A DNA stretch of 64,000 nt from Chryseobacterium suipulveris (lineage in GTDB: Bacteria; Bacteroidota; Bacteroidia; Flavobacteriales; Weeksellaceae): positions 2,894,501 to 2,958,500 of the forward strand of contig NZ_CP094532.1 in assembly GCF_022811685.1 (NCBI RefSeq). Reading direction: 5' to 3'. The notes beneath the pieces were generated by a model that saw nothing but the letters and a program-made list of their open reading frames with translations, did no database searches and was not told the origin of the DNA. Shown one piece after another: positions 6,342-61,967 of the stretch; position 1 is the first letter of the stretch, and each line of letters begins with the position of its first letter. The translations under genes and the position numbers were made by a program.

Positions 6342-6357
6342 TTTGGCTAAAGCCAAA
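6342..6357. repeat. CTAAAG-core palindrome
   Basis: TTTGGC, loop TAAA, GCCAAA: a perfect 6-bp stem with a 4-nt loop, in the leader of the BaiN-type gene. Confidence 0.7.
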
Positions 6358-6375
6358 CGAATCTTTTAACTTGCA

Positions 6376-6393
6376 AACGGACTAAAGTCCGTT
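6376..6393. repeat. CTAAAG-core palindrome
   Basis: AACGGAC, loop TAAA, GTCCGTT: a perfect 7-bp stem with the same loop as its neighbour at 6342-6357, 18 bp away. Confidence 0.7.
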
Positions 6394-6495
6394 CCTACTG
6401 AACTGCAAAAATACAATTTTTATAACCCGTCATTTATGGTTAATTTTGCGCATTACAATTTTTAATTTTTCATTCTTACTTTTTCATTAGCAAAT

Positions 6496-7020
6496 ATGTC
6501 TGATTATCATTATAAATTCGAGGTGAGATGGAGCGACATCGATGCCAACAAACACCTCGCCAACTCCGCTTATGTGGAATACTGCGCACAAACCAGAATG
6601 GCGTTTATGAACACCCACAAAATGGGTCTGAAAGAACTCAGCAGATGGGGAATCGGTCCCGTTATTCTGCACGAACGATATTCTTTTTTTAAGGAGATTT
6701 ATGCCGACCAAACTGTTTACGTATCGCTGGAAATTTCGGGAATGTCGGAAGATGCGAGTATTTATCAGTTCATCCACAAGTTTTATCTTCCGGACGGGAC
6801 ACATATGGCAACCTCTGAAGCAACTGGAGTCTGGATCGATATGATGTTGAGAAAATCGACAACCCCACCCGACGAAATTCTCGAGGTGATGCAGGAATTC
6901 AGCAGCGAACACGTAAAAACTTTAACAAGAGACGATCTGAAAAACCTCCCTTTCAAACCTGAAAATGTGGAAGCATTCCACAAAAGAGGAACTTTCACCT
7001 GGAGAAAAAAAGAAGAATAA
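6496..7020 (+). CDS. acyl-CoA thioesterase, hotdog fold (4HBT/YbgC-like)
   Basis: A 174-residue hotdog-fold protein. The N-terminal segment RWSDIDANKHLANSAYVEYC contains the usual D-x-N-x-H-x-x-N-x-x-Y pattern of 4-hydroxybenzoyl-CoA-type thioesterases. HERYSFFKEIYADQTVYVSLEI forms the second half of the fold. It probably hydrolyses short or branched acyl-CoA. The 5' leader (about 6455-6490) is made of T/A-rich 7-bp periods. ThiL follows 41 bp downstream across a heptad-repeat leader. Confidence 0.85.
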   Translation: MSDYHYKFEVRWSDIDANKHLANSAYVEYCAQTRMAFMNTHKMGLKELSRWGIGPVILHERYSFFKEIYADQTVYVSLEISGMSEDASIYQFIHKFYLPDGTHMATSEATGVWIDMMLRKSTTPPDEILEVMQEFSSEHVKTLTRDDLKNLPFKPENVEAFHKRGTFTWRKKEE

Positions 7021-7061
7021 TCATCTATCACTCATCACCAATCACCCATCACCTATAAAAA
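7020..7061. repeat. heptad direct repeats (unit ATCACCN) in the thiL leader
   Basis: Six consecutive 7-bp units fill the whole spacer between the thioesterase stop and the thiL ATG: ATCATCT, ATCACTC, ATCACCA, ATCACCC, ATCACCT, ATAAAAA. The last unit ends on the base before ATG. Confidence 0.85.
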
Positions 7062-8120
7062 ATGTCCATCCTCGAAGATAAAAACCCACAACTCACTCCG
7101 ATCTCTGCTTATGGCGAATTCGGACTGATCAAGCATCTCACCGAAAACTTTAGTTTTGAAAATTCCTCAACAGAAACCGCGGTTGGAGATGACGCCGCAA
7201 TCATTAATCCCGAAGGAAAAAAAGTAGTCGTAAGCACCGATGTTTTGGCTGAAGGTGTTCATTTCAACCTCGGTTATGTTCCGCTGAAACATTTGGGTTA
7301 CAAAGCGGTGGTAGTGAACTTGAGCGACATTGCAGCAATGAACGCGACTCCGACACAGATTTTGGTTTCACTCGCTGTTTCCAATCGTTTTCCGGTGGAA
7401 GCTCTGGAAGAAATCTACAGCGGAATTGCTTTGGCGTGCAAACACTACAAAGTAGATTTGGTAGGAGGCGACACCACGAGTTCAACTTCCGGTTTGGTGA
7501 TGAGCATTACCGCAATCGGCTTGGAAGACGAAGAAAACATTGTAAAAAGAAACGGGGCGAAAGTGAACGATTTGCTGGTGTTGACCGGAGATTTGGGAGG
7601 AGCTTATCTCGGACTTCAAATCTTGGAAAGGGAACATTCCGTTTTTCTGGCGAATCCGAATATGCAGCCAGAAATGGATGGTTACGATTATATTTTGGAA
7701 CGGCAACTGAAACCAGAAGCACGAACCGACATCAAAAATATCCTGAAAGAACTCGATGTGAAACCTACTTCGATGATCGATGTTTCTGATGGTTTGTCGT
7801 CTGAAATCCTGCATCTTTCCGACCAAAGCAAAGTTGGGTTCCGGTTGTATGAAGAGAAAATCCCGATGGATTCGCTCACAATTTCTACGGCGGAAGAACT
7901 GAACCTGAATCCCGTGATGTGCGCGTTGAGCGGAGGCGAAGACTACGAACTGCTTTTCACCATTTCACCGAACGATTTCGACAAAATTAAAAACCATCCC
8001 GACTTCACAGTGATTGGTCACGCTGTAGATTTGGAGCAGGGAAATTATTTGGTAGCGAGAGGAAGCGGCGAACTGATCGCGCTGAACGCTCAAGGTTGGG
8101 ACGCTTTTCTGAATAAGTAA
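7062..8120 (+). CDS. thiL: thiamine-monophosphate kinase ThiL
   Basis: A 352-residue member of the PurM/ThiL (AIRS) superfamily. The sequence shows FGLIKHL, the metal/ATP site AVGDDAAI, the STDVLAEGVHF motif, NLSDIAAMNATP, VGGDTTSS, LTGDLGGAYLGL, MIDVSDGLSSEI and SGGEDYELLFTI, all in the expected order. The enzyme phosphorylates thiamine monophosphate to the active diphosphate. The length is typical of Bacteroidota ThiL. It converges on the phosphoesterase gene with one base between the two stop codons. Confidence 0.96.
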   Translation: MSILEDKNPQLTPISAYGEFGLIKHLTENFSFENSSTETAVGDDAAIINPEGKKVVVSTDVLAEGVHFNLGYVPLKHLGYKAVVVNLSDIAAMNATPTQILVSLAVSNRFPVEALEEIYSGIALACKHYKVDLVGGDTTSSTSGLVMSITAIGLEDEENIVKRNGAKVNDLLVLTGDLGGAYLGLQILEREHSVFLANPNMQPEMDGYDYILERQLKPEARTDIKNILKELDVKPTSMIDVSDGLSSEILHLSDQSKVGFRLYEEKIPMDSLTISTAEELNLNPVMCALSGGEDYELLFTISPNDFDKIKNHPDFTVIGHAVDLEQGNYLVARGSGELIALNAQGWDAFLNK

Positions 8121-13904: not shown

Positions 13905-13939
13905 TGTTTCGAGTTTCAGGTTTCAGGTTTCAGGTTCAT
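13905..13939. repeat. heptad direct repeats (unit NGTTTCA)
   Basis: Five 7-bp units follow the miaE stop: TGTTTCG, AGTTTCA, GGTTTCA, GGTTTCA, GGTTCAT. Confidence 0.8.
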
Positions 13940-14008: not shown

Positions 14009-14043
14009 GAGTCTTGAGACTTGAAACGTGAAACTCGAAACCA
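14009..14043. repeat. heptad direct repeats in the opposite orientation (unit GAAACNN)
   Basis: Units GAGTCTT, GAGACTT, GAAACGT, GAAACTC, GAAACCA. GAAACTC is the reverse complement of the GAGTTTC in the array at 13905, so the two arrays face each other across about 70 bp. Confidence 0.75.
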
Positions 14044-14673: not shown

Positions 14674-14750
14674 GTTGGAGCATGGGTGAGTCGGTGAGTA
14701 GATTGAGTTTTCAGTAATGCTGAGCATTCTCTATTACTCACACTATTTGT

Positions 14751-14813
14751 TCAAACGATTCACAGTCTTACGATTAACTTCAAACCTCAAACTTCAAACT
14801 TCAAACATTCATA
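14751..14813. repeat. heptad direct repeats (unit TTCAAAC) in the tnaA leader
   Basis: Nine 7-bp units: TCAAACG, ATTCACA, GTCTTAC, GATTAAC, TTCAAAC, CTCAAAC, TTCAAAC, TTCAAAC, ATTCATA. They end one base before the tnaA ATG. Confidence 0.8.
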
Positions 14814-17836: not shown

Positions 17837-17878
17837 AATGAATAATTAAGAATTAATAATTAATAATGGGTTGTGTGA
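17837..17878. repeat. heptad direct repeats (unit AATTAAT)
   Basis: Units AATGAAT, AATTAAG, AATTAAT, AATTAAT, AATGGGT, TGTGTGA in the leader of the haem-copper-oxidase-like gene. Confidence 0.75.
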
Positions 17879-27631: not shown

Positions 27632-28678
27632 TCAGAACAATCTCAGTTGATGCTCCTTTGTTCCGGTAAAATGTTCCGTCGAAAGTGGGTCGATTCTTTT
27701 GTCAGCAAAATATTTCTTCCTCGCCAAACGGTAGGTGTCGTGAATCATTTCCGCGACATTTCCCTCACCTTTGTATCTTTCGAAATATCTCTTCTCGCCG
27801 AGATTTCCACCACGCATCGAGCGGATTAAGTTCAAGACTTTTTGCGCCCGATCCGGAAAATGGTTATTCAGCCAGTTGACAAAAACAGGTTCAACCGTAT
27901 CGTTTAAACGGATCAGAACGTGGTGTGCGCTTTTCGCTCCCAATTCGGAAACGGTTTTGTAAATGTTTAAGCCCTCATCAGAATTGAGCGCAGGAATTAC
28001 GGGAGCGACCATCACATTCACCGGAATATCGTTCTGGGAAAGAACTTCGATTGCTTTCAGCTTATTTTTTACTGATGAAGTTCGTGGTTCCATTATGCGC
28101 CGCAAATCTTCGTTAATGGTGGGAATACTCAAGTTCACACTCACCAAATTTAATTCCCGAAGTTTGACCAGAAAATCCAAATCCCTCAGAATCAGAGCGT
28201 TTTTAGTAATAAACGAAACCGGATGCCGATAATCGAGAAAAACTTTCAAAAGGTTTCGCGTGATTTCCAGTTCGCGTTCTATCGGCTGATAAGGATCAGT
28301 ATTTCCCGACATCACTATAGTTTTTGGAACATAGCCACGTTTCTTGAAAAACTTTTCCAACAGTTCTGGAGCATTTTTCTTGACCATAATCTTCCTTTCG
28401 AAATCGGTGCCCGCAGAAAATCCCCAATATTCGTGGGTGGGTCTTGCAAAACAGTACGAACAGCCGTGTTCGCAACCTTGATATGGATTCAGCGAGTATT
28501 CCATCGACAAGTCCGGACTTTTCACGGGATTCACGATTGTTTTGGGAAAGACTTCAGTGAAGGAAGTTTTCACTTTCAAAAAATCCTCTTCGTCTGGCTC
28601 ATAGGTATATCTGTCGAAACGATTGATCTCGTTCCGAACTGCGCCTTGACCTTTGTATGGGGTTTGAGGTTTGATAAT
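27632..28678 (-). CDS. PA0069-family radical SAM protein (no standard start codon at the expected N-terminus)
   Basis: The radical SAM cluster motif is CEHGCSYC within YSLNPYQGCEHG; MSGNTDPYQPIERE and GEKRYFERYKGEGNVAEMIHDTY match the PA0069/spore-photoproduct-lyase-like group. Translation from the first usual start (TTG 28579) would omit family-conserved residues that are plainly in frame upstream: PYKGQGA..NRFDRYTYEPDEEDF. That extension runs back to a TAA at 28679-28681 and offers only ATT (28678) or ATC (28675) as first codons. A heptad-repeat array overlaps this point. Either a non-standard start is used or the start was lost. About 348 residues; substrate unknown. Confidence 0.75.
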   Translation of the reverse strand: MIKPQTPYKGQGAVRNEINRFDRYTYEPDEEDFLKVKTSFTEVFPKTIVNPVKSPDLSMEYSLNPYQGCEHGCSYCFARPTHEYWGFSAGTDFERKIMVKKNAPELLEKFFKKRGYVPKTIVMSGNTDPYQPIERELEITRNLLKVFLDYRHPVSFITKNALILRDLDFLVKLRELNLVSVNLSIPTINEDLRRIMEPRTSSVKNKLKAIEVLSQNDIPVNVMVAPVIPALNSDEGLNIYKTVSELGAKSAHHVLIRLNDTVEPVFVNWLNNHFPDRAQKVLNLIRSMRGGNLGEKRYFERYKGEGNVAEMIHDTYRLARKKYFADKRIDPLSTEHFTGTKEHQLRLF

Positions 28679-28730
28679 TTAAATTTGAGGTTTGAAGTTT
28701 GGTGTTTCGAGTTTTAGGTTCCAAGTTTCA
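28661..28730. repeat. heptad direct repeats (unit NGTTTGA) at the radical SAM gene start
   Basis: Ten 7-bp units, e.g. GGTTTGA, GGTTTGA, TAATTTA, AATTTGA, GGTTTGA, AGTTTGG, TGTTTCG, AGTTTTA, GGTTCCA, AGTTTCA. Three more (AGTTTGA, TGTTTGG, AGTTTAC) occur at 28751-28771. Confidence 0.82.
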
Positions 28731-28825
28731 TTCCGCATCCGCGGGACGAGAGTTTGATGTTTGGAGTTTACAAAATTATCTTCCGCATACTAAAAATAAT
28801 GAGTTTTAAGACTAATTTTATCCAC

Positions 28826-38344: not shown

Positions 38345-39970
38345 ATGTCAAAAGCAATTTCACAGGTTCCGTATGCGGTGAACGAACCCGTAAGAACTTA
38401 TGAACCGGGATCGGCTGAAGTGAAATCCCTGATTTCCACCTATAAAAAAATGTGGAAAGAAAAGTCAGCAATTCCAATGGTGATCGGAGGAAAAGAGGTG
38501 AAAACCAAGAACGAAGTTCCCCTGAAATCGCCACAGGACCACCAACACGACCTCGGTTTCTATTACAAAGGAACCATGAAACATGTGGACGACGCGATTA
38601 ACGCCGCTTTGGCTGCAAGAGAAAAATGGAACAACCTCGGTTGGGAACAGCGCGCCGCAATCTTCCTTAAAGCCGCAGATTTGATCGCAGGTCCTTACAG
38701 AGACCGACTGAACGCCGCGACCATGATCGGACAAAGTAAAAATGTGCATCAGGCAGAAATCGACTCCGCTTGCGAACTGATTGATTTCCTTAGATTTAAC
38801 GTGGAATTCATGACCGAAATGTACAGCGAGCAACCTGTTTCTGACAACGGAATTTGGAACCGTGCAGAATACAGACCGTTGGAAGGATTTTGCTTCGCTG
38901 TGACTCCATTCAACTTTACCGCAATTTCTGGGAATCTACCTTCGTGTATGGCGATGATGGGGAATGTGGTGGTTTGGAAACCTTCCGACAAACAGATTCT
39001 TTCTGCAAAAGTAATTATGGACATCTTTACCGAGGCAGGTTTGCCAGATGGTGTGATCAACATGATTTTCACCAGCGGAAAAGAAACTGCTGAAAAAGTT
39101 CTTTCGCATCCTGACTTCGCGGGATTACATTTCACCGGTTCAACCAGCGTTTTCCAGAGCATGTGGAAACTGATGGGCGACAATATCCACAACTATAAAA
39201 CCTACCCAAGAATTGTGGGCGAAACGGGTGGAAAAGACTTCGTAATGGTGCATCCTTCCGCAAATGTTGACGCAGTTGCAACCGCTTTGGTAAGAGGAGC
39301 TTTCGAATATCAAGGTCAGAAATGTTCCGCCGCTTCCAGAGCGTATGTTCCAAAATCTTTATGGAAAGACGTGAAGAAAGTTATGGAATCACAAATGAAA
39401 ACCATCAAAATGGGAAGTCCTGAAGATCCATCGAACTTCGTGAATGCGGTGATTGACCAAAATTCATTCGAAAAATGTAAAGGATATATCGAGAGAGCGC
39501 AAAAATCAAAAGACGCTAAAGTGATTATCGGCGGAAAATGCGACGACAAAAAGGGCTGGTTTGTAGAGCCAACCGTAATCGAGGCGACGAATCCGAAATA
39601 CGAGTCGGTGTGCGAAGAGATTTTCGGACCAATCCTTTCCGTTTATGTTTATGAAGATAAAGATTGGGCAGCAACATTGAAATTAGTTGATGAAACCTCA
39701 CCATATTCCTTGACTGGATCAATTTTCGCTCAAGACAGATATGCGATCGACGAAGCATACAAAGCTTTGGAAAATGCCGCAGGAAACTTCTATATCAACG
39801 ACAAACCAACCGGAGCAGTTGTTGGTCAGCAACCGTTTGGTGGAGCGAGAGCTTCAGGAACCAACGACAAAGCGGGGTCTAAGATGAACCTTCTTCGTTG
39901 GGTTTCTGTGAGAAGTATTAAGGAAACTTTTGTAAGTCCAAAAGATTATAAGTATCCGTATCTTGGTTAA
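38345..39970 (+). CDS. pruA: L-glutamate gamma-semialdehyde dehydrogenase (P5C dehydrogenase)
   Basis: A 541-residue aldehyde dehydrogenase of the group-2 P5C dehydrogenase type: PLKSPQDHQHDLGFYYKG, EGFCFAVTPFNFTAISGNLPS, HFTGSTSVFQSMW, the Glu motif GETGGKDFVMVHPSA, catalytic Cys in EYQGQKCSAASRAYVP, and EEIFGPILSVYVYED. It oxidises the proline catabolic intermediate to glutamate. No PutA-type proline dehydrogenase is fused or adjacent. It has its own promoter and terminator and is monocistronic. Confidence 0.95.
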   Translation: MSKAISQVPYAVNEPVRTYEPGSAEVKSLISTYKKMWKEKSAIPMVIGGKEVKTKNEVPLKSPQDHQHDLGFYYKGTMKHVDDAINAALAAREKWNNLGWEQRAAIFLKAADLIAGPYRDRLNAATMIGQSKNVHQAEIDSACELIDFLRFNVEFMTEMYSEQPVSDNGIWNRAEYRPLEGFCFAVTPFNFTAISGNLPSCMAMMGNVVVWKPSDKQILSAKVIMDIFTEAGLPDGVINMIFTSGKETAEKVLSHPDFAGLHFTGSTSVFQSMWKLMGDNIHNYKTYPRIVGETGGKDFVMVHPSANVDAVATALVRGAFEYQGQKCSAASRAYVPKSLWKDVKKVMESQMKTIKMGSPEDPSNFVNAVIDQNSFEKCKGYIERAQKSKDAKVIIGGKCDDKKGWFVEPTVIEATNPKYESVCEEIFGPILSVYVYEDKDWAATLKLVDETSPYSLTGSIFAQDRYAIDEAYKALENAAGNFYINDKPTGAVVGQQPFGGARASGTNDKAGSKMNLLRWVSVRSIKETFVSPKDYKYPYLG

Positions 39971-40005
39971 GAGCCAAGAGCCAAGTTAAAAGAGCCAAGT
40001 AAATC
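39971..40005. repeat. heptad direct repeats (unit GAGCCAA) after pruA
   Basis: Units GAGCCAA, GAGCCAA, GTTAAAA, GAGCCAA, GTAAATC start on the base after the pruA stop and run into the terminator stem. Confidence 0.75.
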
Positions 40006-61926: not shown

Positions 61927-61967
61927 GAAAGCAGCCGGCAATCAGCAGTCTGCTTTCTGCTGTTTTT
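61926..61967 (+). terminator. terminator-like hairpin between the DUF2795 gene and secA
   Basis: CAGCAG (61943-61948), 8-nt loop, CTGCTG (61957-61962), then TTTTT. An alternative outer stem AGAAAGCAG / CTGCTTTCT (61926-61934 with 61950-61958) is exclusive with it. It could attenuate secA expression. Confidence 0.6.

Follow-up and report, generated by a model that had tools for sequence, protein, structure and literature searches.

The window, by which we mean the whole stretch of 64,000 nucleotides analysed here, carries thiL and, upstream of it, an acyl-CoA thioesterase-like gene. The spacer of 41 bases between them is taken up by a tandem array of heptads and a short A/T tail. The features of this locus are the following.

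6496..7020, + strand: acyl-CoA thioesterase-like gene, upstream of thiL (TIGR00051 match, below the cut-off)
7020..7054, + strand: thiL leader array of five ATCANNN heptads (read from the sequence)
7055..7061, + strand: A/T tail ATAAAAA between the array and the thiL ATG (read from the sequence)
7062..8120, + strand: thiL, thiamine-phosphate kinase (TIGR01379, 312 bits against a cut-off of 184)

From position 7020 the spacer reads ATCATCT, ATCACTC, ATCACCA, ATCACCC, ATCACCT, ATAAAAA, and then ATG. The initial annotation described it as six ATCACCN units ending on the base before the thiL ATG. Six 7-base blocks do lie at 7020-7061 and do end there, but the first base of the first block is the last A of the thioesterase stop codon, and the sixth block, i.e., the A/T tail that places 7 nt between the last unit and the ATG, shares AT alone with the five blocks that have ATCA in common, which leaves five real units. 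Lag-7 matches number 23 of 34 in the 41-nt spacer, a value reached by 4 of 100,000 letter shuffles. Neither a second arm nor a predicted fold was found for this array. Arrays or array-like stretches occur in other spacers of the window as well.

13906..13936, + strand: array GTTTCGA GTTTCAG GTTTCAG GTTTCAG GTT after the stop of a MiaE-like gene; arm 1 of an inverted pair
14009..14041, + strand: array GAGTCTT GAGACTT GAAACGT GAAACTC GAAAC before the start of a DUF502 gene; arm 2 of the pair
14674..14707, + strand: weak 8-base periodic stretch, GAGTNGGT-like, after the stop of the DUF502 gene (by eye, under the array threshold)
14776..14806, + strand: array AACTTCA AACCTCA AACTTCA AACTTCA AAC before the start of a beta-eliminating-lyase gene
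17837..17867, + strand: AATTAAT/AATGAAT heptad array; a roughly complementary A/T-rich stretch ends the spacer, up to 17948
28661..28728, + strand: degenerate GTTTGAG/GTTTCGA array; a CCGCGG-centred palindrome and more GTTTG units come next
39969..39985, + strand: 2.4 copies of AAGAGCC at the stop of an aldehyde-dehydrogenase gene (under the array threshold)

Period 7 had been proposed for other spacers of the window too, and it is clear at 14.78, 17.84 and 28.68 kb. The sites at 13.9 and 14.0 kb, counted as separate spacers, belong to a single one: the 14009..14041 arm is largely complementary to the 13906..13936 arm, and an older spacer core lies between both. The site at 39.97 kb amounts to merely 2.4 copies of AAGAGCC, and the one at 62.0 kb, located at 61938-61961 with a score of 7, is weak. 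Within or beside GTTTGAG arrays, a small palindrome (TCCCGC...GCGGGA or CCGCATCCGCGG) is seen at 28733-28750 of the window, at L124 9369-9607 and at L132 2-239.

The genome of the window (G000; 3.04 Mb, single contig, Kaistella-like) was sampled as the window plus 60 evenly spaced 20-kb stretches, altogether 1.264 Mb or 41.6% of the genome, and tandem arrays were counted by a lag-match score in 896 spacers of at least 25 bp each, delimited by longest-ORF gene calls, some edges of which will be wrong. The initial annotation had proposed comparing lag 7 in spacers with shuffled controls, and the excess is indeed present: 86 period-7 intergenic arrays, located in 70 of the 896 spacers, against a mean of 1.8 (maximum 3) in 10 dinucleotide shuffles. 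Period 7 tops the other periods, with 30 arrays of period 8, 16 of period 10 and 0 to 6 for each of the periods 4-6, 9 and 11-13; multiples of 7 and 8 are likewise high. The spacer set also has raised values at lags 3, 6, 9 and 12 (z of 4.8 to 6.1, with 9.3 for lag 7), which means that some called spacers contain coding sequence, and in one array count 8 of 34 period-7 arrays were contained in called ORFs. The earlier claims that period 7 dominates many spacers and that it is not a coding effect were both borne out.

The further claim that unit sequences are unrelated from spacer to spacer was not, since a few degenerate families (ATCANNN/ATTANNN, GTTTNRN, AAGTNNG and others) recur, in other genera too. 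Among the G000 arrays listed, the recurrent heptad families are ATCANNN, AAACYTN/GTTTNRN, ACTTCGN, CTGANAT, TGCTGAN and AAAAGAN, the recurrent octad units are CAATNTAN and CAACTCNC, and a 10-mer, GTTTGANNTN, recurs as well; those listed include long homogeneous arrays, at L124 4204-4298 and L140 12323-12398. Within 7-base arrays, unit identity drops with distance from.83 to.59, the value for adjacent units being inflated by the detection rule; this trend is the sole part used of a pooled family profile that is smeared by ambiguous phase. The similarity of octad units, unlike that of heptads, falls little with distance. When G000 arrays are taken singly, heptads give a weak contiguous-core signal (z about -2.3, 55 arrays) and octads give none.

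Heptad arrays near gene ends have a fixed orientation. For heptads within 20 bp of a gene end in G000 (55 arrays, 5 ties dropped), the G-richer strand leaves the gene in a ratio of 44:6; by edge, G outnumbers C on the outgoing strand in 23 of 26 arrays at starts and in 21 of 24 at stops (joint p = 3e-8). More than 60 bp inside a spacer the ratio is 5:10, array-free spacers have almost no G/C skew at stops (.162/.158), and octads have weak polarity at gene edges, 11:8 overall, with 2:3 at start edges and 9:5 at stop edges. In terms of sense, the units that run towards a start codon are ATCANNN or AAACYTN, and those that run away from a stop codon are TGATNNN or GTTTGAN; the split was less marked in a scan of G000 for four ATYA units, with the ATYA strand entering the nearer gene 12 times and leaving it 6 times. 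Stop edges hold arrays nearly as often as start edges (25 and 30 in G000), in the opposite sense, and therefore a pure leader role fails for the repeats. Of the ideas offered in the initial annotation, a heptad-generating replication process and a leader RNA feature, either may apply.

The number of units is also characteristic. Among 91 period-7 arrays of G000, 34 have 4.0-4.9 units, 7 have 5.0-5.9, 10 have 6.0-6.9 and 11 have 7.0-7.9, a four-unit mode that is partly shaped by the score threshold, which trims short arrays. No G3+ quadruplex motif is present in any of the 91, and GGG or CCC occurs in the unit of 2. In 12 of the 16 G000 spacers that carry two arrays both edges have the same period (2.2, at most 10, after shuffling); this pairing was seen in G000 alone, the thiL loci of relatives having 0 and 1 double-arrayed spacers. 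Arrays of period 7, 8 or 10 occupy 15 of 136 divergent and 66 of 480 co-directional spacers in G000 (p =.47), and these data do not favour transcribed spacers.

The excess, the edge polarity and the four-unit preference were found again in two other genomes, 400 kb of each being sampled. Cloacibacterium rupense (G073) has 20 period-7 arrays against 0.6 in shuffles, an edge polarity of 11:2 and four units in 8 of the 20 arrays, and G053, which belongs to the same order as G000 and to another family, has 28 against 0.2, an edge polarity of 16:4 and four units in 15 of the 28, with six at most. The quadruplex motif was found in 0 of 20 and 0 of 28 arrays, respectively. For spacers of at least 60 bp from both genomes, arrays are present in 33 of 279 spacers between co-directional genes, 4 of 56 between convergent genes and 0 of 82 between divergent genes (p =.0003 for co-directional vs divergent), a bias that points to transcribed boundaries. 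A run of four ATCANNN units was matched in 18 of 20 genomes chosen among those of the thiL loci, and in 50 of 148 spread over the phylum. A reversed-pattern control also matches, in 9 of 20 and 33 of 148, respectively, and thus these counts alone are no proof of an ATCA-specific excess; we take the control matches to represent other families of heptads. When the remaining spacers of the thiL loci were scanned for four ATYA units, there were 5 intergenic matches in L029-L088 against 1.0 in shuffles and 4 in L009-L028 against 0.3, i.e., these 21-kb loci are poor in the ATYA family outside thiL.

Eighty thiL loci were retrieved for comparison. A ThiL search placed the nearest kin of the window in Kaistella and Chryseobacterium, and on a thiL tree the window groups with Kaistella and Chryseobacterium koreense, the best nucleotide identity being 80%. 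The proposed comparison of orthologous spacers had a divided outcome: by eye, the Kaistella-like relatives L009-L027 show no clear heptads in their thiL spacers, but L028 and many Chryseobacterium have them there. In many of the Chryseobacterium leaders an ATAA-rich stretch similar to the tail in the window follows the last heptad. Since the spacers of close relatives look array-free, the array is dispensable for thiL. Three versions of the Chryseobacterium leader were labelled by eye: version A, with TGATNNA after the stop and ATCANNT before the ATG (24 rows, including one from Cloacibacterium); version B, with GTTYNRA (also GTTTNRA) and ATTAYYN arms (13 rows); and version C, with GTTY and ACATTNN arms (16 rows). 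The version changes 12 times on the thiL tree, with a possible minimum of 2 and a shuffled mean of 24.1. One clear swap comes from 18 chosen pairs: L061 and L087 are 97% identical in thiL and 96% identical upstream, yet they carry versions B and A, and the L061 spacer matches at 88% identity that of L083, a locus with a thiL of just 78-84% identity. Versions of the spacer thus seem to have passed from one relative to another through local recombination.

The alignments of version A (two sets, 22 rows in all) and version B (13 rows) also allow the two parts of a unit to be compared. Every tested arm has a consensus of four units, and in 6 of 6 arms the next three bases vary more than the 4-base core, the core columns having been selected by their letters in the consensus (permutation p of.0005 to.014; off-majority rates for core vs free bases of, for example,.042 vs.175 and.062 vs.259). 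Units at different positions of a leader retain different free bases. By a tolerant count, four units make up the right arm in 23 of 37 version A and B leaders, and none is longer; the left arm is less regular, with four units in 11 of 24 and 2 of 13 leaders (13 of 37) and one case of 6. That the core is conserved while the free bases vary argues for more than slippage alone in these leaders.

A second orthologous leader, between coaD and a TRIC-like gene (both names read from translations), was followed in 30 genomes. Four ATYANNN units precede the ATG in 17 of 30, against 0.06 of 30 in shuffles, five or more in 6 and fewer in 7; phase counts, biased by the counting rule, were left aside. ATCA and ATTA versions both occur, and the left arm is often not visible. 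Two genomes of Chryseobacterium jejuense (those of L069 and L075) have ATTA and ATCA versions of one shared leader (L266 and L267), and the sequence upstream of it differs between them. A spacer of the window has a history that can be read from its relatives. In 14 relatives the spacer from the MiaE-like to the DUF502 gene measures 52-77 bases with the stop codon included, mostly around a GAATTTTCCTATTTTTACC-like centre, and the 158 bases of the window retain a similar centre with one array added per side, inverted. By this comparison, the arrays grew alongside the old spacer without replacing it. In the spacer between DUF502 and the beta-eliminating lyase, the edges as read by eye have period 6 or 7 in several Kaistella; some Kaistella-like genomes have period 6 where others have 7 (loci L012, L018, L019, L022 and L024).

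Surplus heptamers in bacterial spacers are already in print, without an accepted cause (PMC4692102). The G-rich repeats GGGNATN of Xanthomonas and GGGGAYT of Nostoc sp. PCC 7120 (Rehm et al. 2015, PMC4692102) are described as preferring four units, which are related to G-quadruplexes, as forming inverted pairs and as having a fixed polarity, with the G-rich strand leaving the nearest gene and with under-representation between divergent genes; the heptanucleotides of Calothrix are mentioned there as well. The arrays described here share with these repeats the spacer excess, the four-unit mode, the polarity and the inverted pairs, but lack G-tracts and belong to several unit families per genome. 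Conservation of the core in orthologous leaders and swaps of spacer versions are further features shown for the arrays described here. Divergent spacers are not avoided in G000 (15 of 136), unlike in Xanthomonas and Nostoc; in G073 and G053 together, 0 of 82 hold an array.

TAACTGA direct repeats stand before start codons in Beggiatoaceae, Cyanobacteria and five Bacteroidetes, and S1, Csp or Csr proteins were suggested to read them (MacGregor 2015, PMC4679880). In the Orange Guaymas genome it is mostly the TAACTGA strand that runs towards the start codon, and heptamer assemblages were already noted in Elizabethkingia anophelis (PMC4679880). Heptads near start codons are the likeness to the arrays described here, and the reverse complement of TAACTGA rotates to ATCAGTT, which is within the ATCANNN family of G000 and is present at C1:400580-400604. 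At thiL, in contrast, the complementary ATCA strand reads into the start codon, i.e., in the opposite sense. The thiL array of the window, made of ATCATCT, ATCACTC and ATCACCN, contains neither TAACTGA nor its complement. The STRR heptanucleotides of cyanobacteria and the heptads of the Nostoc tRNA-Leu intron P6b are degenerate 7-base repeats, some of them inverted, and by this description they resemble the arrays described here; the parallel drawn in the initial annotation with cyanobacterial heptanucleotide repeats was to that extent right. Its remark that no Bacteroidota family familiar to it explains the pattern is to be corrected, the kind being in print for other phyla and a few Bacteroidetes (PMC4692102 and PMC4679880). 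For Weeksellaceae, neither ATYANNN arrays nor core conservation nor swapped spacers turned up in a search of open-licence literature. Within this known kind, arrays that lack G-tracts and have orthologous core conservation and swapped spacers form a variant undescribed in the open-licence literature searched.

The thiL spacer carries one copy of a dispersed class of short gene-edge arrays, in which a 4-base core and 3 freer bases are repeated at a pitch of 7 bases, mostly within about 20 bp of a gene end and most often in about four units. Our preferred explanation, held tentatively and with somewhat less than even confidence, is that the arrays are born by slippage and that some of them are kept because, at gene boundaries, their core is read in steps of 7 bases by a predicted factor. 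New arrays would arise by duplication or slippage of a 7-base unit, and part of them would then be retained by a nucleic-acid-binding factor with several contacts at a 7-base pitch, which would read the core most likely on the message, at the boundary between neighbouring genes. A protein of the OB-fold or KH type, such as ribosomal protein S1 or a cold-shock protein, is a candidate reader and would affect start access or message ends; spacer versions may also be exchanged among relatives through local recombination. We rank this explanation above a purely mutational origin, which we regard as somewhat less likely but as a strong rival, and according to which replication slippage produces degenerate 7-base repeats that are tolerated mainly in spacers, polarity and length being side effects of composition and neutral turnover. 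A 7-base bias of slippage that results from the hold of the polymerase on the template is an idea cited in PMC4692102. Slippage alone accounts for growth, for the long clean arrays among those listed and for the decay of similarity with distance inside 7-base arrays, and the excess of periods 8 and 10 and the variation of unit families from genome to genome agree with it. It misses the conserved core with varying free bases in orthologous thiL leaders, the preference for about four units, seen in unrelated leaders and in G053 (maximum 6), and the polarity, which starts and stops have in common and the interior of spacers lacks, and it is for these reasons that reading by a factor is favoured. 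Homogenising slippage would not predict that units at different positions retain different free bases.

Three other explanations have to be weighed against retention by a factor. It is improbable that the arrays are termini of a small transposable element, which a Y1/REP-associated transposase might move. Like the arrays, REP elements with their REP-associated tyrosine transposases are dispersed, intergenic and inverted; REPs are, however, palindromes beside their own transposase gene. G000 has 7 Y1 matches, five of them strong, the most among 60 genomes searched, and arrays lie within about 130 bp of 2 of the 5 strong genes, in each case on a single side: a clean heptad array of TCTTCCA units at L230 1375-1406, 91 bp away, and an octad array at L233, 126 bp away. 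None of the five has arrays on both flanks, and by eye at least four of them adjoin short REP-like palindromes, so no clear link between Y1 genes and arrays was seen; moreover, G021 has ATCACC heptads with no Y1 match, and the MiaE-DUF502 arrays flank the older spacer core rather than split it. (Palindromes of the window, GGCTAAAGCC and GGACTAAAGTCC at 6343-6400, resemble the REP-like palindromes beside one G000 Y1 gene, at L232.) An RNA hairpin or terminator, in which the inverted arrays of one spacer pair as a stem between two cistrons, is more improbable still. Some spacers do consist of well-complementary inverted pairs (13906-13936 with 14009-14041 in the window), complementarity between edges is above that of shuffled partners (7 of 86 array spacers score at least 14, with a control rate of.022), and double-arrayed spacers tend to have one period at both edges. 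Direct edge matches, however, are above control too (2 of 86, control.001), several paired arms have a common family but not a common unit order, the thiL array of the window lacks an arm and a fold, many coaD-to-TRIC leaders are one-armed, and the arms of version B (GTTTNRA and ATTAYYN) are non-complementary and yet keep the pattern. Unit-by-unit complementarity of arms is not general, and the one-armed leaders and the version B arms rule out a hairpin as the general cause. A G-quadruplex element, the proposal made for the heptads of Xanthomonas and Nostoc, would share the four-unit preference, inverted pairs and polarity given in PMC4692102, but the absence of any G3+ motif from the arrays of G000, G073 and G053 refutes it for the arrays sampled, and we consider it barely credible.

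The same rules (about four units, polarity at both ends, inverted pairs, 4-base core) are thus met in Bacteroidota in units without G-tracts, and for this reason a quadruplex is disfavoured as their general cause. Two testable reasons are left: a bias of slippage, or a factor with a 7-base pitch. A wider possibility, which we consider doubtful, is a boundary element common to several phyla, made of four repeats of a 4-base core and 3 free bases, with core letters that vary between lineages and with constant pitch, number and polarity; a predicted conserved multi-domain factor would read it at the starts and ends of cistrons, and the Xanthomonas and Nostoc repeats would be its G-rich special cases. 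Ribosomal protein S1 has four message-binding domains, and if such an element is real, there may be, for example, one heptad per domain. The thiL and coaD-to-TRIC leaders, with their natural ATCA and ATTA versions, are ready test cases.

Some further arrangements were noted in G000. At L126 5155-5332 the period switches from 7 to 10 bases in the middle of the run and the GTTTGA core is kept, and GTTTGA is also found at an 8-base pitch at L132 66-87. Inverted pairs of octad arrays (CAATNTAN vs CATTGTTA) fill entire spacers at L138 15784-15962 and 14895-14990 and at L159 2189-2292. A dispersed module (GAAGCATTCACGAACTC...AAATAAAATTGTGAGT) with AAACTTG heptads on its flanks is present at three loci, L125 6784-7007, L128 18946-19133 and L129 15792-15981.
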